The position numbers and the translations under genes are program-made. Under the pieces are notes generated by a model that was not told where the DNA came from, made no database searches, and saw nothing but the letters and a program-made list of their open reading frames with translations. Shown piece after piece: positions 6,110-36,370 of a DNA stretch of 64,000 bases. How positions within the stretch are numbered: position 1 is the first letter of the stretch; each line of letters begins with the position of its first letter. The stretch comes from Staphylococcus sp. (GTDB taxonomy: Bacteria > Bacteroidota > Bacteroidia > Bacteroidales > Muribaculaceae), in assembly GCA_023665865.1 (NCBI GenBank), contig JAMPDC010000001.1, positions 1,574,737-1,638,736 on the forward strand, written 5' to 3'.

Positions 6110-6205
6110 TGCCGATTTAAACAGATAAACGCAAAGTTTAAGATTTTAAGAATAATGATTCTTGATAGTCAGCGTGTTATGCGTAGCTTGTTAAGACTTT
6201 TACTT

Positions 6206-6237
6206 TTGTAGTTAAGATTGCTTTAGACATAATTTTG
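6206..6237 (+). promoter_or_regulatory. Promoter of first outer membrane barrel gene
   Basis: TTG at 6206-6208, a 21-base spacer and TAATTTTG at 6230-6237 form a Bacteroidetes promoter. It rules out the in-frame TTG at 6235 as start and supports ATG 6268. A second TAnnTTTG match (TACTTTTG, 6201-6208) overlaps the -33 element. Confidence 0.6.
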
Positions 6238-6267: not shown

Positions 6268-8367
6268 ATGAACGCAAAAGACATTATCAGAATCGCAACG
6301 GCATTGGTGGTTATCATCACTATGCCTACAGTTGTCATAGCCCAAGAAGCGGCAGACACAATCGCAGCCCGGGAACTCAACGAGGTGGTAATCCAAGCGC
6401 CGAAGGTCATCCGCAAGGCCGACATGGATGTCTATAATCCATCCAAAAGTGCGGTTGACAATTCCAAAAACGGTATGCAGCTCCTCCGCAACCTCATGAT
6501 TCCGACGCTCACCGTCAATGACGCTCTAGGCTCTATAAAAGCCGCCGGTCAATCGGTGCAGGTGCGTATCAATGGTCGGGAATCGACAATAGAACAACTC
6601 CAGGCTCTTCTGCCTGAAACCATCAAACGTGTAGAGTGGATTGATAATCCCGGCCTACGTTATGGGGGTGCGAATTATGTGCTTAATGTTATCGTTGCCA
6701 ATCCAACGCTTGGAGGGGCGCTTATGGCTGAAGCTCAACCTGCGTTAAATTGCGCGTTTGGCAAATATAATGTATCCGCAAAATTCAACACCGGACGTTC
6801 GCAATGGGAAGTCGGCGGCTACTTCAAGCTTACTGATGGGATGAAAGCTCACCGTGACTACACCGAGACATTCACATGGCCGGACGGGAGAGAACTAACA
6901 CGGACAGAGACTCCGCTTAGTGGTAAGCTGAACAATACTCAGGGCGCCGGTTGGCTTACCTACAACTATATAAAACCTGACACGACTGTGTTCTATGTCC
7001 AGTTACTTGCCAATCGCTCTTTCTCAGATCTGGCCAACTATAAAGGTCTCTTGTCACTTAGCAGTGGGGAGCAGGATATACTTTTGAATGATGTGACCGG
7101 TCGGGAGGGTACGACACCAAGTTTCTCGGCATACCTGGAGCAACATTTTGCACATTGTCAGACACTCGTCGTCGATTTCAATGCTTCATTATATACCGGA
7201 CATTCGTATTCAGACTATCGTGAAAAATACGAGGATGTTTCGGACTATATAACAGATGTAAGCACCTATATCAAAGACCGCAACCAAGCCTACGGACTTG
7301 AAGCGGACTACATAAAACAATGGCGTTCGTCCAAACTGACTGCCGGAGCATCCTATACCGCTAACTGTAACCGTTCACTCTACGAGAATCTCGGTGGTGA
7401 GATTTTCCATCAGCGTCAGGACAAGGCATATTTCTTCACTGAATATTTTCAGCGTATAGACAACGTCACTCTTACCGGTGGACTCGGTGCGCAATACACA
7501 TCTTTCAAGTTCAAGGAAACCAATCAGGGAAATCACTCATGGAATCTTCGTCCGCAAGCCACCGTGACATACTCGTTGAATCAGAATCATAATTTCAGAT
7601 TGGCTTTCACTTCCTGGCAGTCAGCTCCATCTTTGGCCGAGACCAATATTGCGCCTCAGCAGCTCGACGGATTCCAATGGCGTATAGGTAATTCAAACCT
7701 GAAAACATCGTCATCCTACATGCTGACATTCCGTTACGGCCACAATCTGTTCAGTCAGCGTGTCAGCGGTTCGTTCGGGGCGAGAGCATATACAAGCCCC
7801 AATGCTATAACTCCTTATCTCTATTGGGACAATAACCGGCTCATTACTTCATACGAAAACAGCAAAGGCTTGCAGAATCTGAGTTTCTGGCTCGCCGAAC
7901 AGATACAGATTATTCCGAATTGGCTTATGTTTTCGGGCACACTCCAGTATAAAGCAGAACGCATGAAGGGCAATGCTTATACTCTTTACAACCATACATG
8001 GAGCGGTGATGCCGCCTTGATGTTCATGTATAAGGGATTCCAGCTCGTATTTCAATACGTGAGAGCCCAACGCGACCTCTGGGGTGAGAAAATCAGTTGG
8101 GGTGAGGATTTTAATGTCATAGCCGCTGACTATAACTGGAAAAATTGGCAATTCTCTGCCGGTATGCTCATCCCCTTCGGCAAATACGATCAAGGATCGA
8201 AATCCCTCAGCCAATGGAACCGCAACGAGCAACACACGCGCCTCGACATGCGTATGCCATACATAAGTATCAGCTACAACCTCCAATGGGGACGACAGAA
8301 GCGTGGCGCCAACAAGCTGATCAACGCCGATGCAAACGTAGATCATTCAACCACCGGCGGAAGATGA
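6268..8367 (+). CDS. Outer membrane beta-barrel protein (OMP_b-brl_3 type)
   Basis: A 699-residue outer membrane protein. A signal peptide ends near VVIAQE (about residue 26). It is followed by a short ELNEVVIQAP segment like a TonB-box/linker, a plug-like domain to about residue 140 (VQVRINGRESTIEQLQALLPETIKRVEWIDNPG), and then a long series of amphipathic barrel strands. The C-terminus YNLQWGRQKRG... with a short polar tail is typical of this TonB-receptor-like family, which lacks the full SusC architecture. The cargo is unknown. It is the first structural gene of locus 1 after the TPR-HTH regulator. Confidence 0.85.
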   Translation: MNAKDIIRIATALVVIITMPTVVIAQEAADTIAARELNEVVIQAPKVIRKADMDVYNPSKSAVDNSKNGMQLLRNLMIPTLTVNDALGSIKAAGQSVQVRINGRESTIEQLQALLPETIKRVEWIDNPGLRYGGANYVLNVIVANPTLGGALMAEAQPALNCAFGKYNVSAKFNTGRSQWEVGGYFKLTDGMKAHRDYTETFTWPDGRELTRTETPLSGKLNNTQGAGWLTYNYIKPDTTVFYVQLLANRSFSDLANYKGLLSLSSGEQDILLNDVTGREGTTPSFSAYLEQHFAHCQTLVVDFNASLYTGHSYSDYREKYEDVSDYITDVSTYIKDRNQAYGLEADYIKQWRSSKLTAGASYTANCNRSLYENLGGEIFHQRQDKAYFFTEYFQRIDNVTLTGGLGAQYTSFKFKETNQGNHSWNLRPQATVTYSLNQNHNFRLAFTSWQSAPSLAETNIAPQQLDGFQWRIGNSNLKTSSSYMLTFRYGHNLFSQRVSGSFGARAYTSPNAITPYLYWDNNRLITSYENSKGLQNLSFWLAEQIQIIPNWLMFSGTLQYKAERMKGNAYTLYNHTWSGDAALMFMYKGFQLVFQYVRAQRDLWGEKISWGEDFNVIAADYNWKNWQFSAGMLIPFGKYDQGSKSLSQWNRNEQHTRLDMRMPYISISYNLQWGRQKRGANKLINADANVDHSTTGGR

Positions 8368-11695: not shown

Positions 11696-11755
11696 ACCGC
11701 TCGATTTAATGTAATGAAACAGATTACAATGACTTTAAAAACAGATATTAAATAT

Positions 11756-12550
11756 ATGAATAGAATATTTTCATCACTTATATTCGGCCTGCTTACTGTG
11801 GTAGCTGTGGCACAAAATGCGTCCATAAAGGTGGAATATACCGAGAAATATGAGAACTGGACAGGTGCCAACCGTGTGGAGAAGTTCCTACTGCTGGCCA
11901 ACAATGACGAATCGCGCTATTTCAGCCCTATGACCCAGATTGTCGACTCCATGTTGTCGACCTCCGAAGGGGCGGCTCAGTTCAATGCCATGGTAGAGGC
12001 TGCCAATGCTGCGGGGCGGCGCCCGGCTCTTCTTCCCGGCAGCCGTACGTATATCCTCAAATCGTGGCCGAAAGCCGAGATGAAATGCTTTGAGGAAGCC
12101 GTCGGGGAGTTGGGCAACTACACCGAACCTTTGGATGAGTGGAGTTGGTCAATTTCTGACTCGACAAAAAATATTTTAGGCTACGATTGCGTTATAGCAG
12201 AGACCGACTACCACGGACGCCATTGGACCGTGTGGTTCACTCCCGATCTTCCCTTGCAGAATGGCCCTTGGAAGCTCAGTGGCCTCCCGGGGCTTATACT
12301 CGCCGCTGATGCCGACAATGGCCGCTATGTTTTTGAGGCTACCGGTATCGAGGCTGTCAATCAACCATTTCCCCGGAAGATATACGGCCATGATCTGAGC
12401 GAAAAGATGGACCGCAAGGAGATGCGCCGGATGACCTGGACTTTCTACAATCATTCGGGAGCGCAGATGGCTGCCCAACTGGGTGTCAGCGGTGTGCCAG
12501 AAATATCGCTCCCCGAGGGCTTCGACTTGATTGAGACAGATTACAAATAA
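11756..12550 (+). CDS. GLPGLI family protein 1
   Basis: A 264-residue exported protein. ATG 11756 gives a signal peptide MNRIFSSLIFGLLTVVAVAQ; the upstream in-frame ATG would add 14 residues of unlikely leader. The family signature is present at about 170-181: NGPWKLSGLPGLIL, preceded by the conserved stretch LGYDCVIAETDYHGRHWTVWF. GLPGLI proteins (TIGR01200-type) are Bacteroidetes-specific, periplasmic or envelope-located and of unknown function. It ends 10 bases before the next, related gene. The fixed pairing with an outer membrane barrel suggests a joint role at the envelope (inference). Confidence 0.88.
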   Translation: MNRIFSSLIFGLLTVVAVAQNASIKVEYTEKYENWTGANRVEKFLLLANNDESRYFSPMTQIVDSMLSTSEGAAQFNAMVEAANAAGRRPALLPGSRTYILKSWPKAEMKCFEEAVGELGNYTEPLDEWSWSISDSTKNILGYDCVIAETDYHGRHWTVWFTPDLPLQNGPWKLSGLPGLILAADADNGRYVFEATGIEAVNQPFPRKIYGHDLSEKMDRKEMRRMTWTFYNHSGAQMAAQLGVSGVPEISLPEGFDLIETDYK

Positions 12551-12560
12551 TTCACACAAT

Positions 12561-13385
12561 ATGAACAGACTGTTTACGATCCTCTCCCTCTTCATCATCA
12601 CTATTGCTGCCTTTGCGCAGGAAAGAGCCGCCATCGAGGTTAGCTATAGGGCTACTGAGCCGAATCTGAAGACCGGCAAAATCAATCGGCCAAACAAGTT
12701 TATCCTCCTTGCCGGCGCTTCGGAGTCGAAATTCTATTCTCCAATGACGGAATATCTCGACTCTCTCCAGTCCACTCCCGAGGGAGAGGCTAAGTATAAG
12801 GAAATGGCCCGTGGGGCATTTATGAGCGGGAAACAAGATAAGATTCCCCGCCCTGACGGTAGCTACTATGTCGTGAAGTCGGTCAATGACAACACCATGA
12901 AGACTTTCGACATCAACGGCATGGAGAAATATCTCATCGAAGAACCTATGCCGCAGTGCGGATGGGAGATTGCCGACAGTACAAAGACTATCCTGGGTTA
13001 TGAGTGCCAGATGGCTACGGCCGACTACCACGGCCGCACGTGGACAGTCTGGTTTACCCCTGAAATTCCCATCACCAATGGTCCTTGGAAACTCGGAGGT
13101 CTTCCCGGAATGATATTGGAAGCTGCCGACGCTTCAGGACTCTACACTTTCGAGGCCACCGGCTTGCAGCAGTCTTCGCGTCCCATCATACCCGTCTATT
13201 CCTCTGACGCCTACGATCCTGTTGACCGTAAGGAGTTCCTTAAAATGAAGCGAAAGATGATCGACAACACAATCTCCGAGATCAACGCCCAGCTCAGTGG
13301 TCTCGGCATTTCAATCGCCTCCATCTCACCCACCGCCCCAAACAAATCCCGCAAAGAACTCGACCTCATCGAAACCGACTATTGA
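12561..13385 (+). CDS. GLPGLI family protein 2
   Basis: A 274-residue paralogue of the preceding gene. The ATG at 12561 opens a signal peptide MNRLFTILSLFIITIAAFAQ. The signature is NGPWKLGGLPGMIL, with the last residues of the name motif changed from GLPGLI to GLPGMI, preceded by LGYECQMATADYHGRTWTVWF. Both proteins end in DLIETDY(K). It is the last gene of locus 1 and is followed by a hairpin. Function is unknown; tandem duplication with divergence is evident. Confidence 0.88.
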   Translation: MNRLFTILSLFIITIAAFAQERAAIEVSYRATEPNLKTGKINRPNKFILLAGASESKFYSPMTEYLDSLQSTPEGEAKYKEMARGAFMSGKQDKIPRPDGSYYVVKSVNDNTMKTFDINGMEKYLIEEPMPQCGWEIADSTKTILGYECQMATADYHGRTWTVWFTPEIPITNGPWKLGGLPGMILEAADASGLYTFEATGLQQSSRPIIPVYSSDAYDPVDRKEFLKMKRKMIDNTISEINAQLSGLGISIASISPTAPNKSRKELDLIETDY

Positions 13386-24596: not shown

Positions 24597-26600
24597 TCAA
24601 CTGATTTCGGAATCATCCTCGACCACGAGGTTCTCGATGATGAAATTCTGGCGCTCCATCGTGTTTTTACCCATGTAGAACTCCAGCAGCTCGGCCACAG
24701 CGTCCTCCTTGCGCAGTGTGACGCGGTCGAGACGCATGTCAGGGCCGATGAAGCCTCTGAATTCCTCGGGCGAGATCTCGCCGAGACCTTTGAATCGGGT
24801 GATCTCTGCGTTGGCTCCGAGCTTCTCGATAGCTTCGAGGCGCTCCTCGTCGTTGTAGCAGTAATATGTATCTTCGTTGGGGCCACCGCTGTTGCGCGCC
24901 CCGCGTTTGGTGGTCTTGTGGTTTCGAACGCGGAAGAGTGGCGTCTGCAACACGTAGAGATGCCCTTTCTTGATCATGTCGGGGAAAAATTGCAGGAAGA
25001 ACGTCAGCAGCAGCAATCGGATGTGCATACCGTCGACATCGGCATCGGTTGCGATGATGACTTTGTTGTAGCGCAGACCGTCAATACCCTCCTCGATGTT
25101 GAGGGCAGCCTGCAGGAGATTGAACTCTTCGTTTTCGTAGAGTATCTTGGCCGGGACTCCATAGGAGTTTTTCGGCTTACCGCGCAGAGAGAACACCGCC
25201 TGTGTGGCCACATCGCGGATCTTGGTGATGGATCCGGCAGCCGAGTCACCCTCGGTGATGAATATAGACGATGCCAGTTTCTTCTCCTCGTCGCCTCGGA
25301 TGTCGTTGAGGTGCACCCGACAGTCGAGCAGCTTTTTGTTGTGGAGATTGGCTTTCTTCTGCTTCTCGCGGGCGAGTTTCGTGATGCCGGCCATAGCCTT
25401 GCGGTCGCGCTCGCTCTCCTGGACTTTCTTCAGGATGATGTCGGCTATGTCGGTGTTGCGGTGGAGATAGTTGTCGAGCTCGGTCTTGATGAAGTCACCG
25501 ACAAATTTTGCCACGGTCGGTCCGTCGGGCCCCATGTCGCGGCTGCCGAGCTTGGTCTTGGTCTGCGATTCGAACACCGGCTCCTCGACTTTGATCGACA
25601 CGGCGGCGATCATGCCGTTGCGTATGTCGGAATAGTCGAAATCTTTCTTGAAATATTCCTTGATGGTGCGCGAGACAGCTTCCTTGAATGCCGTGAGGTG
25701 AGTGCCACCCTGGGTAGTATGCTGTCCGTTGACAAACGAATAATACTCCTCGCCGCGCTGGTTGGCGTGGGTGATGGCCACCTCGATGTCGTCGCCCTTG
25801 AGATGGATCGGCATGTAGAGCGGGTCTGTGGTCATCGTGTCTTTCAGCAGGTCAAGCAGACCGTTGCGCGAGATGTAGCGCTTGCCGTTGAAGATGATGG
25901 CCAGCCCCGTGTTGAGGAAGGTATAGTTTTTCAGCAGTGGTATGATGAAGTCGTCCCTGTAGCTGTAGTCGCGGAAGATTGTGGCGTCGGGCGTAAACTT
26001 CACGAGAGTGCCGTTGGGCTCGTCGGTCGGTTCGATGTCACTTTCCTCGACCATGTCTCCGCAGCGGTAGAGCACGCTTTTCATCTGCCCGTCCCTGACG
26101 CTTTGGATGAAAAACTCCGTAGAGAGAGCGTTGACGGCCTTGATGCCGACACCGTTGAGACCCACGGATTTCTTGAAAGCCTTGGAGTCATACTTGCCGC
26201 CGGTGTTCATCCTCGACGACACATCGACAAGCTTGCCCAGTGGCACACCGCGTCCGTAGTCCCTGACGAGAACCGACCCGTCGGCCACGTCGACCACGAT
26301 CTGCTTGCCGAAGCCCATCATGTATTCGTCGATGGCATTGTCGAGCACCTCCTTGATGAGCACATAGATGCCATCGTCATAGTTGGAGCCGTCGCCGAGC
26401 TTGCCGATATACATGCCCGGACGCCGGCGTATGTGTTCCTTCCAGTCAAGCGTCTTGATGTCGTCCTCGCTATAGTTGGCCGGCTTAGGCTCGGAGGCGG
26501 TGACAGAGTCCGCGGTGCGATTCTCCTCCGCGGAAGCCTCAATATTGCCCTCGTTGAAAAAGCCGGTGCTTTCTGCCGATAAATCGTCGTTTTGTATCAT
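24597..26600 (-). CDS. parE: DNA topoisomerase IV subunit B / type IIA topoisomerase B subunit
   Basis: A 667-residue GHKL ATPase. Residues 50-240 hold the ATP-binding domain ([31 protein letters not shown] with the Mg-binding Asn, [21 protein letters not shown]). The transducer domain and TOPRIM domain follow ([11 protein letters not shown] and [10 protein letters not shown] metal ligands), and then the C-terminal IT.FKGLGEI motif. With the A subunit it decatenates and relaxes DNA. Assignment as ParE rather than GyrB follows from the compact length and the Bacteroidetes pattern; GyrB is the alternative. An N-terminal extension of about 45 acidic residues precedes the core. Confidence 0.9.
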
Positions 26601-26628
26601 TTTTTATTTCTACGGAATACTTCTCCCG

Positions 26629-26636
26629 CAAATTTA
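26629..26636 (-). promoter_or_regulatory. -7 box of parE-coaD
   Basis: Read on the minus strand it is TAAATTTG (TAnnTTTG), 28 bases before the parE start at 26600. Confidence 0.5.
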
Positions 26637-26680
26637 CAAAAAAATCGCCACATTCCCGCAGTAACTTTCCCCGTTTTTAT

Positions 26681-26688
26681 TAACTTTG
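26681..26688 (+). promoter_or_regulatory. -7 box of second TPR-HTH regulator
   Basis: TAACTTTG matches TAnnTTTG and lies 22 bases before the ATG at 26711. It is divergent from the parE box 45 bases away. Confidence 0.55.
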
Positions 26689-26710
26689 TTCTGTCTAACC
26701 GACCACACAG

Positions 26711-28396
26711 ATGTCAAAAATCATCCTCTATATATTTTCCCTGCTCTTCCTTGCGTCATGTTCAGACTCCACGGGAGTCGGACAGCAGTTGCGCGAGGCC
26801 GAGTCAGTCATGGACCAATATCCCGATTCGGCTCTCAGGATTTTGCAGACCATCAACTCGTCCGATCTCCGCTCTGACCGGGCGCGGGCACTCCACGCTC
26901 TGCTCTACTCCCAGGCGCTTGATAAAAACTACATAGATGTCACCGACGACTCGCTCATTAACATCGCCGTCGACTATTTCAGCCATTCCTCCGACACGCG
27001 CCACCACATGCTCTCGCTTTACTATCAGAGCATCATCGCAGGTTACCGTCAGGCTTATTCCAAGAGCCTTGTATCGGCATTGAGAGCCTACAGCCTTGCC
27101 GGCGAGCTTGACGATAAATTCTGGTTGGGTCTTACTGCGAGAAATATAACCGACATATATTTTTATAACTATTGTGCGGTCGAGGAACTTAAATATGCCC
27201 GGATAGCTCTCGACAATTTCAGTCAGACCGACCGCCGCAACTTCATGCACTATGCCATCTGTGACCTCGCCCGCGCCTATCATACCAATGAGGACTATCC
27301 TGAAGCTATCCGCATAGCAACCGAGCTTCTTGACACGGCGGCTGTCTATAATGATCCGATACTTGCAGTGCGTGCTCAAAGACTGATAGGACTCGCCTCA
27401 CTTGGCGCCGGAAATATATCCGATGCCCGCGGCGCCTATGATGCTCTCCGAGCTAACCCCACGGCTACTCTTACCGATTCCGTCTATTACGCTGTGCTCA
27501 GTCTTAAAATGGGGGAGCGATGGCCTGCAATCTCCGATATAAAACGCTGGATGGCTTCGCCGGCTATCTCATCGGTGGCAAGTGGTGTGAGGGCTTGGAT
27601 GAAGTATAACTATTATCAAGCTCTTGATTCCACATCCAAGGCTCTAAGTATGAAGAGGGAAGAGCTGCATGTGAATGACAGTATATTCAAGCAGTCGCGT
27701 CGTCAGAATCTCGCCGGAACTGTCATGGAGTTCCATCACTATCAATCGGAACTCGACCATGCCAATCTCAGACTCTCACGGATCCGTTCACTGCTAATCT
27801 GCCTGACGGCTATGGTAGTCATTGCCATAGTGCTGTTGCTTGCCCGCCGCCGCGTAAGGCGTCAGCAGGCGCTCATCGAGCAATACCATGCCATGGCATC
27901 CGATCTCCGTCTGCTCCTCTCCGAAGCCACTGCTGTCAAGCAATCGGTGCCCATCACGGCCGACCCTATGCCACTTCAGCCAGTTGCGCCGTCAATGTGC
28001 AGTCTGGAGAATTTCATTGCCGATTTCGACTCCCTTTGCCGAGATTTCCGGCGCGACGATTCTCCCGAAAGCCGCCGGCATACGGCCGAGGGCGTAGGCC
28101 GTATGATTGATTCTTTCAGTGCCGACAATCATAAATTTCAAGAGTTGGAGAGCTATGCTGATTATCGCTTCGATTGCATTATGTCGAAACTCCGCCTCGA
28201 TTGCCCCGGCCTCAAGGAGATTGACTATCAAGTTTTCCTCCTCTCCCGACTCGGATTCTCTATAGCTACAATGGCGCTTCTTCTACGTGGCGACGACAAC
28301 AAAACCTTTATCTATAACCGCCGCAAGCGTCTGCGCGAGAAGTTCCGAGCCATCGACGGTCCCATGCGTGACGTCTATCTTGAAGTCATGGCATGA
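26711..28396 (+). CDS. TPR lipoprotein regulator with TM segment and C-terminal HTH-like domain
   Basis: A 561-residue protein built like the one at 4463. It has lipobox LASC (Cys17), TPR-like helical repeats over about 20-320, a coiled coil, one transmembrane helix at about 359-380 (LLICLTAMVVIAIVLLLA) followed by Arg-rich residues, a cytoplasmic coiled coil and a C-terminal HTH-like region at about 503-548 (LLSRLGFSIATMALLLRGDD...YNRRKRLREKF). This C-terminal pattern is common in Bacteroidetes TPR regulators. It precedes a small lipoprotein and the three-GLPGLI operon, which it may control (inference). The sensed signal is unknown. Confidence 0.8.
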   Translation: MSKIILYIFSLLFLASCSDSTGVGQQLREAESVMDQYPDSALRILQTINSSDLRSDRARALHALLYSQALDKNYIDVTDDSLINIAVDYFSHSSDTRHHMLSLYYQSIIAGYRQAYSKSLVSALRAYSLAGELDDKFWLGLTARNITDIYFYNYCAVEELKYARIALDNFSQTDRRNFMHYAICDLARAYHTNEDYPEAIRIATELLDTAAVYNDPILAVRAQRLIGLASLGAGNISDARGAYDALRANPTATLTDSVYYAVLSLKMGERWPAISDIKRWMASPAISSVASGVRAWMKYNYYQALDSTSKALSMKREELHVNDSIFKQSRRQNLAGTVMEFHHYQSELDHANLRLSRIRSLLICLTAMVVIAIVLLLARRRVRRQQALIEQYHAMASDLRLLLSEATAVKQSVPITADPMPLQPVAPSMCSLENFIADFDSLCRDFRRDDSPESRRHTAEGVGRMIDSFSADNHKFQELESYADYRFDCIMSKLRLDCPGLKEIDYQVFLLSRLGFSIATMALLLRGDDNKTFIYNRRKRLREKFRAIDGPMRDVYLEVMA

Positions 28397-28644
28397 GGAG
28401 CATTGAAGCTGTCCGGACCTGTTTTTCGTAAAAAAGTGTAGCCACATCTTAGTCATTGGCCACTTTTATCTATTTCGGTGGCTATTGATAAATCATTGAT
28501 CTTTAATAATATATACCACCACTAAAGCAAGTGACTAAAAATTAGCTTTAGTCGCCCATGTAAGATACTGATTAATAAGGATTTATAAACTTAGTTGACT
28601 AATAGAATTTCGTCTGAAAAGTTTTTGATTTGGGTTTTGTTACA
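28397..28644. other. AT-rich intergenic stretch, no gene seen
   Basis: About 250 AT-rich bases between the TPR regulator and the next promoter box. I see no coding frame with family character and no strong hairpin. Confidence 0.5.
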
Positions 28645-28652
28645 TATCTTTG
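28645..28652 (+). promoter_or_regulatory. -7 box of 28709 lipoprotein
   Basis: TATCTTTG matches the consensus exactly; a TTTG at 28624-28627 may be the -33 element (17-base spacing, slightly short). It rules out upstream in-frame starts and supports ATG 28709. Confidence 0.6.
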
Positions 28653-28708
28653 CGACTGTCAACACTATTACGGAAACCAATAAAATCACTAATCCAAAAC
28701 TTATAATT

Positions 28709-29098
28709 ATGAATATTATTTCCAAACTGACAGGCATGAGAGTATTGTTGGTCACTATTTGTCTTATGGGGTGTTTAGCCTTCATTTCATGTGATAAAGA
28801 TAATTGTGGTTATCCCGGTAGTGTTACCTTTTCATCAAAAGGGGGTTCAAAAATAATAAGGACAAATGAAGATATCAACTTAGTCTATATGCAGATCCTT
28901 GATTATGATGGAGAGGGTAATTATAGTGATCAAGAAAGAGAAGATTCACTAATTGTCACATATCAGTGGCTTACTGCTAAAGCAGCTCTTTATGGCAATG
29001 AGATAGAGCTTATAGCCGAACCTTCGCTGTCGTCTAAAAAACGTACACTATATTTAGATGTGAATGAAGATATTGAAATAAAAGTAACTCAAAAATAG
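28709..29098 (+). CDS. Small unknown lipoprotein in locus 2
   Basis: A 129-residue exported protein. The N-terminus MNIISKLTGMRVLLVTICLMGCLAFISCDKD-type leader contains two possible lipobox cysteines, Cys22 (LMGC) and Cys28 (ISC followed by DKD); Cys28 fits the Bacteroidetes pattern better. The mature part is short, beta-rich and acidic, with no family I recognise. The first residues after the lipid anchor (CGYPGSVTFSSKGG) resemble the start of a BACON-like beta sandwich, but this is weak. It is monocistronic, with a -7 box upstream and a terminator downstream, between the regulator and the GLPGLI operon. Confidence 0.7.
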   Translation: MNIISKLTGMRVLLVTICLMGCLAFISCDKDNCGYPGSVTFSSKGGSKIIRTNEDINLVYMQILDYDGEGNYSDQEREDSLIVTYQWLTAKAALYGNEIELIAEPSLSSKKRTLYLDVNEDIEIKVTQK

Positions 29099-29130
29099 CA
29101 AGACCTATCTTTATATAAATAAATGTGATG

Positions 29131-29170
29131 GCCTCACGGATGTTTTTATAATTATCCGTGAGGCTTTATG
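29131..29170 (+). terminator. Hairpin terminator after 28709 gene
   Basis: GCCTCACGGAT at 29131-29141 pairs perfectly with 29154-29164 around a 12-base loop, followed by TTTATG. Confidence 0.75.
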
Positions 29171-29262
29171 CAAATTTAAGAATAAAGATACTGTCTGTTG
29201 CTTGTTTAATTAGTGCATCGTTGTTTTAAATAAAATTTAACTAAAAATATATAGTTAAAAAT

Positions 29263-29293
29263 TTTGTAAATATAATTGCGTGACTTATCTTTG
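29263..29293 (+). promoter_or_regulatory. Promoter of the locus 2 GLPGLI operon
   Basis: TTTG at 29263-29266, exactly 19 bases, then TATCTTTG at 29286-29293: a consensus Bacteroidetes promoter. The leader to ATG 29392 is about 95 bases and includes a small CTGCCGACGGCAG hairpin near 29338. Confidence 0.75.
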
Positions 29294-29391
29294 CGTAAAT
29301 CATAACTGACTCATTAACGCTTTTCCAATGATCACACTGCCGACGGCAGCCTCACTGTTCTCATTAGCCACATTATATTTAATCAAGCAAC

Positions 29392-30249
29392 ATGAAAAAG
29401 TTTCATCACATATTAGCTATAATGCTATCCTTACCTTTTTTAGTCCATGCCCAAGGTGATTGGACTATACAACGGACTGAGGATGGTCCGGCGAAATTGG
29501 CTGAGCGAATTCCGCTTGGGAAAAGCTATATGGAGTGTGTCTATGACCATACCATATATGATCCGGTCAAAAATATAACTGAGGTTAAAGATTGGATATT
29601 GGAAATTGGCAGAGATGCGATTTTTTATAGAGACTATGGTGTTTATAGGGTAGATTCTGTCATTGATAAAGACTATCCGGACGGATATATATTGTGTAGC
29701 GAATATGATGAGATTGAAAGGAAATATAATTCACACCCTAACTATGAGTTGATTATTGATTTAAAACAAAATACGCTTACTCATTATCAGCAAGTTTTCA
29801 TGGATAATTACAATTATGAGGAGCCGATACCTGCGTTTGACTGGACTATCACTGAGGAGGAAGAAGAATTGTGTGGATATGCTTGCAGGAAAGCGACGAC
29901 ATCATTCCGTGGACGTGACTGGACGGCATGGTTTGCCGAGGAGATTCCCGTGAACCGTGGCCCTTGGAAGTTCAGCGGTCTGCCGGGGTTGATACTGAAA
30001 ATGGAAGATAGTAAGAAAGAACACATCATAGAGGCTTATCAGATAAGGCAAAGCGACAGACCCTTCTGGAGATATACTCATTCGACAGCAATGAAGACCG
30101 ATAGGCTTAACTTCAACAAAATGTTGACTGACTACATGACTAATCCAGGTAATTTTATAGTCGGTCAACCGGGAGTCCCTATGGGCGCGGATGGCAAACC
30201 GGCAATAAAAAATAGACGTCGCTTCTTCAACCCCATCGAGTTGGAGTGA
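29392..30249 (+). CDS. GLPGLI family protein 3
   Basis: A 285-residue exported protein with signal peptide MKKFHHILAIMLSLPFLVHA. The family core is CGYACRKATTSFRGRDWTAWFAEEIP and, at about 188-200, NRGPWKFSGLPGLIL. It ends in NRRRFFNPIELE. First gene of the locus 2 operon. It is a recent duplicate of the 30502 gene: signal peptide, core and C-terminus are nearly the same, while the segment between about residues 28 and 135 has diverged. The 5' half is AT-rich and the core is GC-rich. Function unknown; the conserved Cys pair in CGYAC may form a disulfide (inference). Confidence 0.88.
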   Translation: MKKFHHILAIMLSLPFLVHAQGDWTIQRTEDGPAKLAERIPLGKSYMECVYDHTIYDPVKNITEVKDWILEIGRDAIFYRDYGVYRVDSVIDKDYPDGYILCSEYDEIERKYNSHPNYELIIDLKQNTLTHYQQVFMDNYNYEEPIPAFDWTITEEEEELCGYACRKATTSFRGRDWTAWFAEEIPVNRGPWKFSGLPGLILKMEDSKKEHIIEAYQIRQSDRPFWRYTHSTAMKTDRLNFNKMLTDYMTNPGNFIVGQPGVPMGADGKPAIKNRRRFFNPIELE

Positions 30250-30263
30250 CGGCAAGGGGAGCT

Positions 30264-30467
30264 GCTGCCGGAGGCAGCATAGTCGTGCCGAAACCCCGGG
30301 CTTTGCCTGGGGCAGCCACGAGGATAAGAGGAAATCCTCGGAGAGGCGTCTTATGACTGCACGGCTAACTCTCACATAAACCGCCTCTCCGAGGCTCGAT
30401 ACTACCCATCACGCTCTTCCCGGGCGTTGCCCGGGGTTTCAGCACGATCACGGCTGCCTCCGGCAGC
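30264..30467. repeat. Mosaic palindromic element, nested A-B-C-C'-B'-A' arrangement
   Basis: The gap between two GLPGLI paralogues holds three palindromic words, each present twice in mirror order. Word A is GCTGCCGGAGGCAGC (30264-30278; inverted copy 30453-30467). Word B is CCCCGGGCTTTGCCTGGGG (30294-30312; partner 30419-30436). Word C is CCTCGGAGAGGC (30336-30347; inverted copy 30383-30395). Flanking bases such as GTGCCGAAACCCC also pair with their mirror, so the whole 204 bases is one imperfect inverted repeat. The same words recur at 31383 and 53235-53535. It has no coding capacity. Confidence 0.85.
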
Positions 30468-30501
30468 TATGGCGTAAATTATCAACACTAAGTCAAGCAA
30501 C

Positions 30502-31359
30502 ATGAAAAAGTTTCATCACATATTAGCGATACTGCTATCCCTTCCTTTTTTAGTCCACGCTCAGGGCGATTGGACTATAGAAGGATATGAGGATACAATG
30601 GTGGAAATAGGGAAAGGGATACCACTCGGCGTAAGTTTCATGGAGTGTGTCTATGACCATACTGTCTATGATCCTGTCAAAAAGAAAACTCGTGTATATG
30701 ATGAGATTTTAGAAGTAGGCAGGGATGCTTTGCGATATGGAGATTATGGACGGTATCGCAAAGATTCCGTCATGGCGAAAGATTACCCTGATGGAAAAAT
30801 AATGTTCAGTGAAAGCATGAGACTTGCGAAAGAGTATGGAGTCAGAAGTTCATATACTATAATTGAGGATTTAAGGCAAAACAAATTGTTGTTTTACCGT
30901 CAGATTTTCATGGATAATTACAATTATGAGGAGCCAATCCCTCAATTTAACTGGACTATCACGGAGGGGGAAGATGAGTTGTGTGGCTATGCTTGCCGGA
31001 AAGCGACGACATCATTCCGCGGACGCGACTGGACGGCATGGTTTGCCGAGGATATCCCGGTGAACCGTGGCCCTTGGAAGTTCAACGGCCTGCCGGGGCT
31101 GATACTGAAAATAGAAGACAGCAAGAAAGAGCACGTCATCGAGGCCTACCAAATAAGACAAAGCGACAGACCGTTCAGTAATGATATAAGTCCGTCATCA
31201 ATAAAGACTGACAGACTTAACTTCAACAAAATGATGAAAGATTTTATGACTAATCCCGGTAATTTCCTTGCAGGCCAATCTGATGCGCCCATCGGCCTCG
31301 ACGGCAAACCGGCAATAAAAAACAGACGTCTCTTCTTCAATCCTATCGAGTTGGAGTGA
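30502..31359 (+). CDS. GLPGLI family protein 4
   Basis: A 285-residue protein of the same length as the 29392 protein. Signal peptide MKKFHHILAILLSLPFLVHA; core CGYACRKATTSFRGRDWTAWFAEDIP; signature NRGPWKFNGLPGLIL; ending NRRLFFNPIELE. Even the bases just before the ATG (TCAAGCAACATG) are copied, so the duplication included the 5' flank. The palindromic element lies between the two copies. The variable segment at about 28-135 differs in residues but keeps length and landmarks (MECVYDHTVYDPVK, MDNYNYEEPIPQF). Confidence 0.88.
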   Translation: MKKFHHILAILLSLPFLVHAQGDWTIEGYEDTMVEIGKGIPLGVSFMECVYDHTVYDPVKKKTRVYDEILEVGRDALRYGDYGRYRKDSVMAKDYPDGKIMFSESMRLAKEYGVRSSYTIIEDLRQNKLLFYRQIFMDNYNYEEPIPQFNWTITEGEDELCGYACRKATTSFRGRDWTAWFAEDIPVNRGPWKFNGLPGLILKIEDSKKEHVIEAYQIRQSDRPFSNDISPSSIKTDRLNFNKMMKDFMTNPGNFLAGQSDAPIGLDGKPAIKNRRLFFNPIELE

Positions 31360-31382
31360 CGATCCGACGATTTATTGTCACG

Positions 31383-31397
31383 GCTGCCGGAGGCAGC
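31383..31397. repeat. Single copy of palindromic word A
   Basis: GCTGCCGGAGGCAGC, identical to word A at 30264-30278, in the 67-base gap between GLPGLI genes 4 and 5. Confidence 0.8.
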
Positions 31398-31426
31398 ACA
31401 GTCATATCAACTTACTACACTTAATC

Positions 31427-32275
31427 ATGAAAACAAAGGTTCTTACCATCATTTTATTTGCTCTTGCTTTTTGTGGCTTTGCGTTGCCAAGCGAAGATTC
31501 AGCTCCAAATGAAGCCAGAAGAAAAGCTATGTATGGTAATCAGGAGGTGATTGGCCGAAGCTATATGGAGTGTATCTATGAACATGCGAGCCATGACCCG
31601 GTGCTTAATGAAACGAGATATACCGACGGCATACTTCAGATAGGGAAGAATGTGAGTATATATCGCCTTTATCTTACCTATCAGCGAGACTCTGTCGTAA
31701 TAAGCAGGAATTATGATGTCTCAAGAGAAGAATTCAGCAAGCTGTCAAAAAAATATAGCGCCAAAAATAATATGTTGGTCAAGAACTTTGCAGACAAGAC
31801 TCTGTCGGTTCATTATACAATCCCGTTTGACAAATATACCTACACCGAAGTTATCCCGCAGATGGATTGGACACTCTCCGACGAGACTGATGAAATCGCA
31901 GGCTACAGGTGCGGGAAGGCAACTGTGGATTTCCGCGGACGCAAATGGACGGCATGGTATAGCGAAGATATCGCCGTCGACAACGGGCCATGGAAGTTCA
32001 ACGGCCTGCCGGGACTGATCATAAAGGTTGAAGACGACAAAAAGGAACATGTCTACCAAATGATACAGCTCCGCAAAAGCGATAGCGAAATTTTCCGGAT
32101 ACATTCTTCGTCTGAAATCAAGACCGACCGGATGAATTTCAACAAGGCTCTCAAAGACTACTGTATGTCACCCCCAAATTTTATCGTCGGCCATCCATTG
32201 GTGCCGAAAAATGCAGATGGCAGTGCTTTGATGGCCCCCAAGCGGGTATTCTACTCTCCGCTTGAGAAAGAGTAG
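31427..32275 (+). CDS. GLPGLI family protein 5
   Basis: A 282-residue exported protein (signal peptide about MKTKVLTIILFALAFCGFA). Core AGYRCGKATVDFRGRKWTAWYSEDI and signature DNGPWKFNGLPGLIIKV; ending RVFYSPLEKE. It is more diverged from genes 3 and 4, with MECIYEHASHDPV corresponding to their MECVYDHT.YDPV. It has only one Cys in the core stretch (YRCGKA), losing the first Cys of CGYAC. It is third in the operon, 58 bases before the barrel gene. Function unknown. Confidence 0.87.
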   Translation: MKTKVLTIILFALAFCGFALPSEDSAPNEARRKAMYGNQEVIGRSYMECIYEHASHDPVLNETRYTDGILQIGKNVSIYRLYLTYQRDSVVISRNYDVSREEFSKLSKKYSAKNNMLVKNFADKTLSVHYTIPFDKYTYTEVIPQMDWTLSDETDEIAGYRCGKATVDFRGRKWTAWYSEDIAVDNGPWKFNGLPGLIIKVEDDKKEHVYQMIQLRKSDSEIFRIHSSSEIKTDRMNFNKALKDYCMSPPNFIVGHPLVPKNADGSALMAPKRVFYSPLEKE

Positions 32276-32333
32276 GGGATGTTTCCCACCGAAAATCTAT
32301 AATAAGGAACAATTTTAACCGCTCCCTGACAGT

Positions 32334-34961
32334 ATGAGACATATTTACCAGACACTCTTCCGGCTGCTTGCCGTGTGCATCCTGACAATGATCTGTCAGG
32401 AAGTCCGCGCGTGGCAGATCAGCGGTCATGTGGTCGAGGCATCCGGCGAGGCTTTGCCGGGTGTGGTGGTCAAACTTGTTGACGGCAATGGAAAGACTGT
32501 CGCCTTTTGCTCGACAGACAACAAGGGCTCGTTTACGCTCAGACGCAGTCAGGCTCCGGATGGAAAATGGATGGTAAGTTTCGCCTTTCTTGGCTATGAG
32601 ACCAGGAAATTTCCGGTGGAAAAGGTGAACGATGGTATGAAAGTCGTGATGAGCGACGCACCGCTGGAGTTGAAAGAGGTTGTTGTCAAGGTAGCTCCCA
32701 TCAAAAATATCGGCGACACGTTGGTCTACGATGTAGCCTCGTTCCGCAGTGCCGCCGACCGCAATATAGAGGACGTCATCAAGAAATTGCCCGGTGTCGA
32801 GGTGGCCTCAGGCGGTACCATCTACTATAATGGCGAGCCGATCAACCGCTTCTATATCGAGGGTCTCGACGTGGTGTCGGGACGCTATGCGATTGCTACA
32901 AGAAATATCTCGCCCGACGATATAATGTCGGTCGACGTCTATGAAAACCACCAGCCTAAGCGGGTGTTGAAAGACCTCTCGATCAGTGATAAGGCTGCAA
33001 TCAATCTGACTATGAAGAAGAAAAGCATGCTGCGGCCGGTGGGCAATATCACCGGTGGAGTAGGGCTTGATGACAATAGCGACGTCAAGTGGCTCGGGGA
33101 ACTGTTCGGGATGTTGATCTCTCCATCATCGCAGATATTGCTGACCGCTAAGACCAACAATCATGGTAACTCATACGCCGACGAGACTCAGCAACTCATC
33201 TCCGGCATGAGAGAAAAAAGCTCGCAGGCGAGCAAGCTCTACGGGGAGACTCCGTTCGGCACGGCCAACATCCCTTCGGAGCGCTATTTTGACAACCGTT
33301 CCATCTCAGCCTCGGTCAACTCCATCAGAAAGTTCGGGAAGTATGGCAAGCTCGGCATCACCGCTGACTATAATGACGAAAACAACCGCACCGACAACTC
33401 CGAGACCATCGTCTACAGCAACGGTGACAATCCTGACATCAATTTTCACGAGGAAGTGAGAAGTCATCCCCACTCGCGCGAGGCAAAAGTCAATGTGAAT
33501 ATCGAAAACAATGCCCCGCAGACATTTTTCACCGACAAGATCAGCTTCCGCGGACGCTTTGCCGACAACCGCTATGACATAGTCAACTCAGGTCGTGTCA
33601 ACCAGCAGTCGCGCACTGATGACTACTATATCAGCAATCTCCTTGACGGAACGTTTAAGAAAGGACGTCGGCTGGTGGCCTTCAGTTCCGATATCTCCCT
33701 TGTCACTACCCCGGTGAGCCGGCTCTGTGCCTCGCAGGATGAGGTGTCGCTGCTGTCGCAGTCGGGCAGGGCACTGTCGTTCACTACTTCTGAGAAGGCT
33801 TCGGCCTCTCTCAGTCTTGGCTCGGCATCATCGCTCGGAGTCAATCTCAGATTTGATTCCGCTTATGACCTTTTCAAATCCGACTATTCCACAGGCACCG
33901 ACGGTAGTGTGGCCAACAATGTCAGGGGCTATGACCTGAAGGTGGTCACCGAGCCTGAATACAGGTATAAGCCCGGCTACACGTGGTCGCTGAGTGTGCG
34001 TGTGCCCCTCAGCTACACCGCCATGAAATTTCACAACCGCATCAGCGGCAAGGAGTATCCGACCGACAGATTTGACGCCGGTGTCAATGCCTCGTTTAAC
34101 ATTCGACCTTCGGGCAGCTTCCGCGCCTCGCTGACCCTGCGTCAGCAGAACTCTCTTGGCGGCATCAGGGACTATATAGTCAATCCGGTCTACATCACCT
34201 ATCGCCAGCGTTCCACTTTCGGCTCAGGTGATCTCAATAACCGCGAGACCTACGGCGCTACGGCCAATATCTTTTACCGCGACCCGATCAAGGCATTTTT
34301 TGTCACTCTTCTGGCCGGCTACCGTCTCAGCAGGGACAATGTCATCTCCGGCAGCGATGTCACGACCGACCAGGTCGCCAGTTCTGTGTCAAACTCTAAA
34401 AACAGCAGCCGGATGTTTAACGTTGACCTGACTGTTTCGAAAAACATGCGAGACTGGCGCACTACCTTTACTCTTGACGGCCACATCGCAGTCCTCAGCC
34501 GTAAGGTGTTGAGGCAGAAACTGCCATATACGGTGAGCAATACCTCCTATGTCATCCATGCGGCTGTCAACAGCAATCCGATAGCCAGTATCATAGACGT
34601 TTCAGCCGAACTGTGGTATAAACCCTCCGTCCAGAAAATATCTGCAATGGGTATGCGCAACACTGTCGACGATATCGTCGCTCAGGGAAATGTCTCTGTC
34701 CATCCTTTCAGACGGGTTGAGGTATATTCGGAAGTCTATTGGAGCAAAGTATCGGTAGCAGCCGGTACCTCTAAGAGCAGTCTGTTTGTCGGTGCGGGCG
34801 TGCGTTACCATAAGAAGCCCTTTGCAGTCGAGCTCAGCGGGAAGAATCTGACAAACACTAAGTCGTATTCCTACACCTACTTCATGGCGTCAGATCTTTA
34901 TAGCCACACCTTCTCACTGCGCCCTGCGGAGTTGCTGCTGTCCGTTAAATATACTTTTTAA
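32334..34961 (+). CDS. Outer membrane receptor with carboxypeptidase-regulatory-like N-terminus
   Basis: An 875-residue outer membrane protein with signal peptide (to about EVRAW, residue 26). A CarboxypepD_reg-like beta-sandwich spans about 27-108 (ISGHVVEASGEALPGVVVKLVDGNG...). After the linker ELKEVVVKVAPIKNIGDTLVYDVASF comes a TonB-dependent-receptor plug at about 135-230 (KLPGVEVASGGTIYYNGEPINRFYIEGLD) and a barrel ending in the terminal Phe of LLSVKYTF, a good BAM signal. It closes the three-GLPGLI operon. It differs in architecture from the locus 1 barrels, which lack the N-terminal sandwich. No SusD partner is present; cargo unknown. Confidence 0.87.
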   Translation: MRHIYQTLFRLLAVCILTMICQEVRAWQISGHVVEASGEALPGVVVKLVDGNGKTVAFCSTDNKGSFTLRRSQAPDGKWMVSFAFLGYETRKFPVEKVNDGMKVVMSDAPLELKEVVVKVAPIKNIGDTLVYDVASFRSAADRNIEDVIKKLPGVEVASGGTIYYNGEPINRFYIEGLDVVSGRYAIATRNISPDDIMSVDVYENHQPKRVLKDLSISDKAAINLTMKKKSMLRPVGNITGGVGLDDNSDVKWLGELFGMLISPSSQILLTAKTNNHGNSYADETQQLISGMREKSSQASKLYGETPFGTANIPSERYFDNRSISASVNSIRKFGKYGKLGITADYNDENNRTDNSETIVYSNGDNPDINFHEEVRSHPHSREAKVNVNIENNAPQTFFTDKISFRGRFADNRYDIVNSGRVNQQSRTDDYYISNLLDGTFKKGRRLVAFSSDISLVTTPVSRLCASQDEVSLLSQSGRALSFTTSEKASASLSLGSASSLGVNLRFDSAYDLFKSDYSTGTDGSVANNVRGYDLKVVTEPEYRYKPGYTWSLSVRVPLSYTAMKFHNRISGKEYPTDRFDAGVNASFNIRPSGSFRASLTLRQQNSLGGIRDYIVNPVYITYRQRSTFGSGDLNNRETYGATANIFYRDPIKAFFVTLLAGYRLSRDNVISGSDVTTDQVASSVSNSKNSSRMFNVDLTVSKNMRDWRTTFTLDGHIAVLSRKVLRQKLPYTVSNTSYVIHAAVNSNPIASIIDVSAELWYKPSVQKISAMGMRNTVDDIVAQGNVSVHPFRRVEVYSEVYWSKVSVAAGTSKSSLFVGAGVRYHKKPFAVELSGKNLTNTKSYSYTYFMASDLYSHTFSLRPAELLLSVKYTF

Positions 34962-34978
34962 AACAACAGCTTAAAGAA

Positions 34979-36370
34979 TCACTCCTCAGGACCCGGGGTC
35001 TGATAGGCTCCGAGGTTGGGTGAGGGGAGGCGGGGAGTGCCGTAGAAGTCCGTTGCTCCATGCGAGGGGATGAGGTTGACGTCGGCGGCTCCAATGGCCG
35101 GCGAGCCTGGCTGGAGACGGTAGTCGAAGAGATAGTCGTTGCGGACCGTGAAATAGAGCGGGTCAGCTCCCCAGATGCAGTCGATGAAGTTGTCGTCGTC
35201 GGAACCTTCGCTTTTCAGCAGACAGCGGCGGAGGGTGACGGCTGTGCCGGTGAGGTCGCCTACCGAGAGGTCGGGCGAGAGACCGTAGATGATGCAGTTG
35301 TTGAATGTGGCCTCAAGGAGCGGCGCCCCTGAGCCGTTGTCGGTCTCGGTGCTGAAATGATCGAGCTGTATGGCAGGAGTGGTTGGATAGACAAAAAGAT
35401 AATAGTTGGCGAAAGTGCAGTTGTCGGCCGTGACCTTGCCACCTCTTAGCAGCAGTAGCCCTGAGCCGGCCTCGGCTATCTCACAGCCGGTCAGCGAGAG
35501 CTCGGAGTGGATGGCTGAGAGGGTGTAGCCCGCACTGTTGCGCAGACGGCAGTTGACCATATCCACCTGCGAGAGCGAGTCGGCATGGAGGCCGGAGACA
35601 GTATTGATGATTTCTGTATGGCTTAGCCTGTTGCCCCGGCTTTCGGGGGCGAATTGCACTCCCACCCATTGCGACGACATTACTTCAAACGATATGTCGC
35701 CGACGACGTTGCCCGTGCGGTCGCCACCCAGTCTGACCGGGGCAGCGGGGGTGCCCTCGGTGATGAGAGTACCATCGACGCGCATGAGCGCACCGTCATG
35801 GAAATGGAGGGTCGATCCGGCTCCTATGGTCAGGGTCGCGCCTTTGGCCACAATGAGCGAGTCGTAGATCTGATAGGGGTAGGTTGCGTCAAATCGTGTG
35901 TCGGATCCTATCACAGTCCCGCGCAGACGCTCCACGTCCTGGCCGGTCGCGTTGAGCACCACGCTCTGTGTGACGCCGTTGGTGGTGAAGTCGATGATAT
36001 CGTTGAAATCAGTCAGTTCAGGGGCTCCGTTAGGTCGCAGTGTCGCCTCCACAAAGACATAGATGGAATCATTTGGGCGGATCTCCACATTCTGGAAACT
36101 CGTCCCTGAAAAACCGTCGACATTTATGCGAAACACACGCTCACCGCTCCGCAGCGAGATATTGCTGATGCTGAGGATGCGGTCATGACGGTTGTAGACC
36201 ATGAAACGGTTGGTCGGAGTGGGCTGGTCGGTGAATACGACGCCCATTTTCAGCGTGTCTACCGAAAATTCGGGCTGATCGGATGGCGACGTAGTGATGC
36301 CGTCCTCGATGCAGGCAGGGAGGACCGAAAGGAGTATGAGAGCAAAAAATATACTGAGGAGTGTTTTCAT
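34979..36370 (-). CDS. Lipoprotein with right-handed parallel beta-helix repeats
   Basis: A 463-residue lipoprotein. ATG 36370 gives MKTLLSIFFALILLSVLPAC with lipobox Cys20; an upstream in-frame start adds 18 residues that spoil the signal peptide. Residues about 40-140 are a beta-sandwich (FSVDTLKMGVVFTDQPTPTNRFMVYN). Residues about 175-440 are beta-helix turns (LIVAKGATLTIGAGSTLHFHDGALMRVDGTLITEG, then HTEIINTVSGLHADSLSQVDMVNCRLRN). The ending PAIGAADVNLIPSHGATDFYGTPR...LGAYQ is a common tail in Bacteroidetes parallel beta-helix surface proteins. No catalytic motif is seen; a glycan-binding or adhesin role is possible. It converges with the barrel gene, 17 bases apart. Confidence 0.8.
   Translation of the reverse strand: MKTLLSIFFALILLSVLPACIEDGITTSPSDQPEFSVDTLKMGVVFTDQPTPTNRFMVYNRHDRILSISNISLRSGERVFRINVDGFSGTSFQNVEIRPNDSIYVFVEATLRPNGAPELTDFNDIIDFTTNGVTQSVVLNATGQDVERLRGTVIGSDTRFDATYPYQIYDSLIVAKGATLTIGAGSTLHFHDGALMRVDGTLITEGTPAAPVRLGGDRTGNVVGDISFEVMSSQWVGVQFAPESRGNRLSHTEIINTVSGLHADSLSQVDMVNCRLRNSAGYTLSAIHSELSLTGCEIAEAGSGLLLLRGGKVTADNCTFANYYLFVYPTTPAIQLDHFSTETDNGSGAPLLEATFNNCIIYGLSPDLSVGDLTGTAVTLRRCLLKSEGSDDDNFIDCIWGADPLYFTVRNDYLFDYRLQPGSPAIGAADVNLIPSHGATDFYGTPRLPSPNLGAYQTPGPEE

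Follow-up and report, generated by a model that had tools for sequence, protein, structure and literature searches.

Background

Proteins of the GLPGLI family are recognised by the models TIGR01200 and PF09697, which name no function, and in the literature searched they turn up in tables of expression data and among lists of regulated genes. Here we describe a locus encoding three of them (locus 2, positions 26711-34961 of a 64,000-nucleotide stretch, hereafter the window) in a genome deposited as Staphylococcus sp. and assigned by GTDB to the Muribaculaceae, order Bacteroidales (assembly GCA_023665865.1, contig JAMPDC010000001.1, positions 1,574,737 to 1,638,736 of the forward strand). The locus is headed by regulator 2, a predicted membrane-anchored protein with tetratricopeptide repeats (TPR) and a C-terminal domain resembling a helix-turn-helix (HTH), whose close relatives share a predicted operator and a cassette that places GLPGLI genes, with their remote RseB/LolA-like predicted fold, between a small secreted peptide and an outer-membrane barrel. 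The window also holds a second regulator of this kind, regulator 1, in locus 1.

Several described systems resemble parts of this arrangement. BT_3442 (NF053779) of Bacteroides thetaiotaomicron is a TPR multi-domain protein heading a MACPF cluster rich in lipoproteins, and the adjoining BT_3441 is related to a small immunoglobulin-like protein of solved structure (PMC2954219). It resembles the present case in that a TPR protein leads a lipoprotein-rich cluster and in its weak match to both regulators (39.5 bits for regulator 1 and 34.2 bits for regulator 2, below the NF053779 cut-off of 940 bits), whereas the cargo given for BT_3442 consists of MACPF and porin genes. In C10 protease operons of Bacteroides, small staphostatin-like proteins of 116-138 amino acids are co-transcribed with secreted proteins (PMC3462683). 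Similarly, several regulator 2 relatives head loci of a small protein and a C10 peptidase; however, the available part of that paper mentions no TPR regulator, and the cargo of locus 2 is GLPGLI. The bacteroidetocins are tiny cysteine-bearing peptides of Bacteroidetes with double-glycine (GG) leaders, a dedicated ATP-binding cassette (ABC) exporter and two or more cysteines, often four (PMC6671954), in contrast to the signal-peptide-like N-terminus and two invariant cysteines of the cassette peptide.

The architecture of regulator 2 also invites comparison with two better known classes. TPR superhelices of the RRNPP family (Rap, NprR) are among its structural matches, but RRNPP proteins are cytoplasmic, soluble receptors of re-imported peptides, whereas the lipoprotein signal and transmembrane (TM) helix of regulator 2 place it outside that family, and its HTH-like domain is C-terminal. 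Membrane-bound one-component regulators such as ToxR and CadC combine a periplasmic sensor, one TM helix and a cytoplasmic DNA-binding domain. Judged by titles and the beginnings of abstracts, the literature searched describes no TPR-LuxR or TPR-HTH regulator of Bacteroidetes, no such operator and no such cassette.

Locus 2 and the regulator 2 clade

Locus 2 runs on the plus strand in the order regulator, lipoprotein, three GLPGLI genes and barrel. In a tree of 86 regulators, regulator 2 forms one clade (support 98) with those of five loci from other genomes, L080, L081, L082, L083 and L172, and GLPGLI lies downstream in 6/6 rows of this clade; L172 was chosen for its GLPGLI, the other five rows were not. 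The full cassette is present in L080, L081 and L083, and the L082 contig ends before the barrel. A second, distant regulator clade precedes the same peptide-GLPGLI-barrel cassette in other genera. This recurrence in two clades shows that locus 2 is a real unit, as the first-pass annotation had supposed on the different ground that the window held two copies of one gene logic. In L172 (4547-7167, genome G199) the cassette barrel is split into two open reading frames (ORFs) of 487 and 387 amino acids.

Regulator 2 (26711-28396), as read from its ORF, an alignment and a model, carries a lipoprotein signal whose lipobox cysteine (C17) is invariant in 38 aligned rows, a TPR superhelix at residues ~21-330, a TM helix at ~360-378, a linker and a C-terminal helical, HTH-like domain. 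The lipobox and the single strong later TM peak are read from the sequence, the helical C-terminus comes from the model, and the topology is predicted. The model from the 38-row alignment (predicted local distance difference test score, pLDDT, 88.3) shows an all-helical superhelix, then a long helix that crosses the membrane region, and finally a C-terminal domain that is helical too; its structural matches, mainly TPR proteins with Rap and NprR included, are to be read as indicating TPR and not peptide sensing. No HTH model matched regulator 2 in the Pfam search, while regulator 1 matches GerE over the cut-off (35.2 bits), and the C-terminus of regulator 2 aligns with that HTH in profile-profile comparison. 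The strongest later hydrophobic peaks lie at residue 360 in regulator 2 and 361 in regulator 1, close to where the first-pass annotation had put both helices; since other full-length paralogues in the genome peak at 355, 357, 359 and 382, this position marks the family and not a special pair.

The gene directly 3' of the operator encodes a 129-amino-acid lipoprotein (28709-29098) with a weak BACON match (E 0.016, under the cut-off) and its own promoter -7 box, TATCTTTG, at 28645-28652. By profile comparison it falls outside the family of ~125-130-residue small secreted proteins found behind related regulators. This gene had been overlooked, so regulator 2 does stand upstream of the GLPGLI genes, as first annotated, but not directly. 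A hairpin with 11-bp arms at 29131-29164, read from the sequence, is a possible terminator between the lipoprotein gene and the GLPGLI promoter; the terminator scan found none, under a rule that leaves out loops longer than 8 bases and hence this hairpin. The GLPGLI operon has a promoter of its own, TTTTG-N19-TATCTTTG (29262-29293, -7 box at 29286), in agreement with the earlier call, as are the three GLPGLI genes and the barrel, which were recovered together with the regulator through their ORFs, lipobox, TIGR01200 and CarboxypepD_reg. GLPGLI protein 1 (29392-30249; TIGR01200 160 bits) is followed by its tandem copy, protein 2 (30502-31359; 77% DNA and 72% protein identity), by protein 3 (31427-32275; 169 bits) and by an 875-residue outer-membrane barrel with an N-terminal CarboxypepD_reg domain (32334-34961; Pfam), a recurrent GLPGLI partner.

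Regulators of this type are more widespread than their association with GLPGLI. Regulator 2 is matched at E 1e-60 in only 9/198 Muribaculaceae genomes (own genome included, up to 7 candidates scored per genome); all 13 places outside the own genome were fetched, GLPGLI being present in 2/13 and a related ~125-130-residue secreted protein, by a one-sequence profile, being the next gene in 8/13. A wider scan of genome contigs with a profile of 14 aligned regulators gave, among the best 80 of 186 loci, 73 with a mapped plus-strand regulator, of which four (L080-L083, L082 being on the contig of L040 and L083 on that of L041) have GLPGLI downstream; this count is a lower bound, since 14/73 loci have less than 3 kb of downstream sequence. 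The remainder carry C10 peptidases, DUF4848 or other genes downstream; a DUF4848 gene adjoins a DUF3244 gene in the iron response of B. thetaiotaomicron (PMC10434189). Among distinct regulator loci the next gene encodes at most 180 amino acids in 45/66, compared with 36/299 for other genes of at least 300 amino acids in the same loci. In the own genome, searches gave nine matching stretches with the regulator 2 query and five with the regulator 1 query, eight genes in all, five of them in stretches without any GLPGLI search match. GLPGLI-bearing regulators require at least three changes on the tree against the other labelled groups; four were counted, a number as low in 2/500 shuffles, and regulator clades thus seem to have exchanged cargo. 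A record titled Pseudoflavonifractor (Bacillota; L116) carries a Bacteroidales-type regulator locus and may be a contaminated bin.

The predicted operator

Motif comparison across the gaps behind the clade's regulators reveals a predicted, clade-specific operator of regulator 2, which is a new finding. In 6/6 clade gaps (five distinct ones, as L080 and L081 share one gap sequence), the distance from the start of the word TGACTAA to the -7 box is exactly 49 bp, and in the window this promoter-proximal half-site lies at 28596-28602 on the plus strand. A palindrome, TGACTAA-N9/10-TTAGTCA, begins 62-64 bp further upstream in all six, with two copies 1-2 bases off: TTAGTTG in L082 and TTAGTCG in the window, where the predicted site reads TGACTAA-N9-TTAGTCG (28532-28554). 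An extra TTAGTCA precedes the palindrome by 81-83 bp in L080-L082 and in the window (28449-28455, minus strand, 83 bp), while L083 and L172 have no exact copy of this upstream half-site. TGACTAA occurs in 1/81 other regulator gaps (80 distinct), namely L087, and six times in the 64-kb window, three of them within 300 bp. The pattern TGACTAAN8-11TTAGTC matches once in the genome, at 28532-28554, and its reversed control not at all.

At the GLPGLI promoter, a degenerate half-site, TAACTAA (29238-29244, plus strand), lies 48 bp 5' of the -7 box, an arrangement that was noticed post hoc and met in 0.7% of 4000 shuffles. With this half-site at nearly the same place, the GLPGLI operon of the window is probably a second target of regulator 2. 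A perfect palindrome with 8-bp arms at the same promoter was discarded as evidence, being present in 12.7% of shuffles. Upstream of the own GLPGLI loci 3-5, operator words occur as single scattered copies in L032 and L034 and are absent from L033, none being at promoter distance.

Operator words differ among three regulator clades, as far as the predicted sites go: TGACTAA for regulator 2, TTAAGAC for regulator 1 and CGG-containing words for a third type. The last consists of four words spaced by 11 bp, two direct and two inverted, and was sought in eight gaps of the own-regulator-F kind or from peptide-bearing loci; four pass (L164, the near-identical L165 and L166, and the own L038), and the test failed in L161, L162, L163 and L169 and in 69/69 gaps of the regulator 2 scan. 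Behind the own regulator F (L038, regulator ending at 5649), the quadruple is made of GAGCGGA-type words at 11-bp spacing.

The peptide, GLPGLI and barrel cassette

By comparison of genomes, the cassette has the order two-cysteine secreted peptide of 58-80 amino acids, GLPGLI, barrel, which a regulator and a secreted protein of ~130 amino acids may precede. It is found repeatedly in Muribaculaceae, and other families of the order have it in a form lacking the regulator. In L040, L041, L080 and L081 the peptides are ORFs of 58-69 amino acids with a signal-like N-terminus and two cysteines, preceding GLPGLI. A profile of five copies found matches in 17/198 family genomes, 14 of them at E <1e-8. 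All 14 directly precede GLPGLI; three were seeds, which leaves 11/11 non-seed loci, some of the same genus. A barrel follows in 11/11 of these and a TPR regulator precedes in 7/11 (the L161 regulator was recognised from its sequence and included in the tree; contig ends truncate L168 and L170). Across 393 genomes of the order (own included), five further matches were found, 4/5 preceding GLPGLI and a barrel, one of the four (L185/L189) with a weak peptide score; with 15 candidates scored per genome, this is a lower bound. A weak match in L184 without GLPGLI was taken as chance, and three weak matches (E 4e-5 to 5e-4) inside frames of 240-837 amino acids were dropped. Both cysteines are invariant in 17 rows.

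The peptide reached no Pfam or NCBIfam cut-off, the best NCBIfam match being EexN for one of five peptides (E 3e-4, 20.6 of 33 bits), and the small secreted protein gave nothing over the cut-off in Pfam or NCBIfam and no positive result against PDB sequences. In the own genome, a single peptide ORF lies in locus 3 (L032 7195-7413); other positions directly before GLPGLI are L040 1205-1396, L080 9383-9592 and those in L160-L170, L180, L182 and L183. The peptide as ligand of the regulator was rejected as a main idea, because it is present without a regulator (L032, L186-L188) and most regulators are seen without it. In L189 (3918-11075), ORFs of 450 and 726 amino acids adjoin the weak peptide match, GLPGLI and barrel; we take them to resemble a radical S-adenosylmethionine (SAM) peptide maturase and a C39-peptidase ABC exporter, and such neighbours, if confirmed, would link the cassette with peptide natural products.

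All five GLPGLI genes of the window exceed the TIGR01200 cut-off of 50 bits, four with 138-176 bits and 30502 with 170 bits (match located at C1:1605379). In this 2.69-Mb genome, which is an estimated 88.75% complete, the GLPGLI genes number 17 and fall into five clusters; three of the five lack such a regulator or have a truncated one only, and barrels of ~854-876 amino acids occur in all clusters but locus 1. For GLPGLI protein 1, a model from a 12-row alignment (pLDDT 83.6) is matched best in Foldseek by the N-terminal domain of PNGase F-II (PNGF-II, 4r4z; E 1.1e-9), although GLPGLI proteins carry no attached glycosidase domain; the corresponding Pfam model PF22252 is over the cut-off for both locus 1 GLPGLI genes and just under it for 29392. 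Ependymin-related proteins, Porphyromonas gingivalis LolA3, RseB, VioE and LolA follow at E 7e-5 to 1e-3 (RseB 2.6e-4, LolA ~1e-3). On this modelling, the predicted GLPGLI fold resembles that of the PNGase F-II N-domain and has a remote likeness to RseB and LolA. The own GLPGLI locus 4 (L033 8817-17346) has barrels and GLPGLI on both strands and a truncated TPR regulator (338 amino acids), together with ORFs that look, from their sequences, like a sensor kinase (491 amino acids), a response regulator (226), BlaI (137) and BlaR1 (431).

Relation to locus 1 and other features

Locus 1 consists of regulator 1 (4463-6109, plus strand; GerE HTH), a barrel, a 354-residue protein, a second barrel and two GLPGLI genes. 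The first-pass annotation took locus 2 to repeat this plan, but the gene orders differ and the regulators are distant homologues in separate clades: BLASTP aligns them at only 34% over 61 amino acids, whereas profile-profile comparison spans 507 columns end to end (18% identity, E 1.5e-31), and six regulator-1-type rows fall together on one side of a branch with support 100. Regulator 1 is matched at E 1e-60 in 38 of the same 198 family genomes, again with up to 7 candidates scored in each. From 40 places outside the own genome, 27 were fetched (7-19.5 kb each), and GLPGLI was found in 0/27. An outer-membrane barrel is the next gene in 21 and the next but one in three (24/27): one of ~690-723 amino acids follows directly in 16, and a ~770-residue protein that matches the barrel profile weakly comes directly after the regulator in five and one gene later in three. 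The other three loci show neither type, one of them (L067) stopping at a contig end. The barrel gene at 6268-8367 (plus strand) is accordingly the conserved partner kind of regulator 1, and the two GLPGLI genes (11714-12550 and 12531-13385, plus strand) are of another subfamily and unlinked to it in relatives; the first GLPGLI of locus 2 has 27-29% identity to them, versus 42-72% within locus 2. With regulators in separate clades and with different partners elsewhere, the argument from two copies fails the refutation test that the first-pass annotation itself had set.

Nor do the promoters at 6206 and 29263 share an operator, as had been suggested, the words being different. The gap 3' of regulator 1 (26 aligned rows, window included; L071 and L079 had no alignable gap and were dropped) shows TTAAGAC-type repeats at approximately helical spacing running into the -7 box, TAATTTTGC. 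In the window the predicted operator (6138-6237, plus strand) has direct repeats at 6138, 6191, 6212 and 6222 and the -7 box TAATTTTG at 6230. TTAAGAC-N13-15-TTAAGA occurs three times in the genome, once at locus 1, and its reversed control does not occur.

Between the first two GLPGLI genes of locus 2, an imperfect palindrome resembling repetitive extragenic palindromes (30251-30500) recurs elsewhere in the genome, at L037 5103-5301 and 9910-10103 with 67-77% identity. An Rfam search over 26000-36000 gave no positive result.

Proposed mechanism and alternatives

We consider it reasonably probable that regulator 2 is a one-component transmembrane activator which senses the periplasm and controls a surface-trafficking cassette. 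Activation, signal, cargo and direction of transport are what we infer in the following scheme. The lipid-anchored periplasmic TPR superhelix would sense a peptide or protein signal, which would travel along the TM helix and coiled linker and reach the cytoplasmic LuxR-like HTH. Bound both to the TGACTAA palindrome and to the half-site 49 bp upstream of the -7 box, this HTH would recruit RNA polymerase to the next gene. In the clade, the controlled promoter would head the ~130-residue secreted protein, the two-cysteine peptide, GLPGLI and the barrel; in the window, it would head the BACON-like lipoprotein. GLPGLI proteins could serve as periplasmic carriers of the RseB/LolA type, moving a small cargo, either hydrophobic or a peptide, to or from the barrel; in relatives this cargo may be the two-cysteine peptide.

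Several observations weigh against this scheme. The window has neither a two-cysteine peptide ORF nor the ~130-residue secreted protein, so that the direct target of regulator 2 here may be the lipoprotein only, and the half-site at the GLPGLI promoter has one mismatch and is 1 bp off. Own loci 3 and 5 have GLPGLI-barrel pairs but no such regulator, and the same is true of L186-L188 and of several clusters in other genomes (L171, L173-L177 and L179). LolA3, RseB and LolA are remote from GLPGLI protein 1 (E ~2e-4 to 1e-3, TM-score 0.22-0.36 by query length). A general repeated-word test was passed at p<=0.05 by 11/79 regulator gaps (13.9%) against 10/104 control gaps (9.6%), and both regulator gaps of the window failed it; a 7-letter word occurred at least three times in 48% of regulator gaps versus 20% of control gaps, whose lengths were not matched. 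As the general test is barely above control, operators are claimed for three clades only. Furthermore, Bacteroides is described as being without general disulfide-forming machinery (PMC6671954), which makes a disulfide in the peptide doubtful.

The absence of the peptide and small secreted genes, the regulator-free pairs in own loci 3 and 5 and the hairpin and separate promoter between lipoprotein and GLPGLI would all fit regulator 2 controlling the lipoprotein alone, with an independently regulated GLPGLI-barrel operon whose position is a relic of the relatives' cassette. We regard this as possible but rather unlikely, as two observations speak against it: a degenerate half-site precedes the -7 box of GLPGLI by 48 bp, and the GLPGLI linkage is kept in 6/6 clade rows. 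A comparable, equally tentative place is given to import, in which a ligand entering by the barrel would be bound by GLPGLI and the peptide would be a surface or inhibitor protein and not cargo. Barrels of the TonB-dependent type are importers, and peptide, GLPGLI and barrel stay together in cassettes that have no regulator; yet Pfam at E 1e-3 gave only CarboxypepD_reg and a sub-cut-off bMG3 for the locus 2 barrel, without the Plug and TonB_dep_Rec domains that define TonB-dependent transporters, and to our knowledge a tiny secreted peptide is unusual as the first gene of an uptake locus. A search of the barrel against PDB with phmmer gave nothing better than E 0.05.

We think it improbable that the palindrome and repeats serve the regulator gene as terminators or as processing signals. 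They do sit just 3' of the regulator stop codon, and the copy in L041/L083 forms a perfect hairpin whose arms are 20 bp long; however, the window copy is not followed by a T-run and the terminator scan found none, the single half-site forms no hairpin and yet keeps its exact distance to the -7 box in 6/6, and regulator 1 has direct repeats and some regulator-F-type gaps paired repeats in place of the palindrome. That the window holds two copies of one regulator-GLPGLI logic is very improbable, for the shared protein architecture and distant full-length homology are outweighed by differing clades, partners and operators and by the 0/27 regulator 1 orthologue loci with GLPGLI.

Significance

The regulator 2 scheme, at its widest, would describe a Bacteroidales trafficking system not reported before, in which a peptide bound by a LolA/RseB-like carrier is passed through a dedicated barrel, under membrane TPR activators whose private operator words allow many parallel circuits without cross-talk; we put this forward tentatively, as a conjecture more likely to need revision than to stand whole. 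GLPGLI proteins are widespread but their family has no named function, and the recurrent peptide, the recurrent barrel and the carrier-like predicted fold suggest a function that can be tested. Many surface-protein loci of gut Bacteroidales begin with a TPR-TM-HTH protein, and an operator prediction at the level of single bases makes these regulators testable by binding and could let their regulons be read from sequence. Distinct words in three clades would show how parallel paralogous regulators stay insulated from one another.

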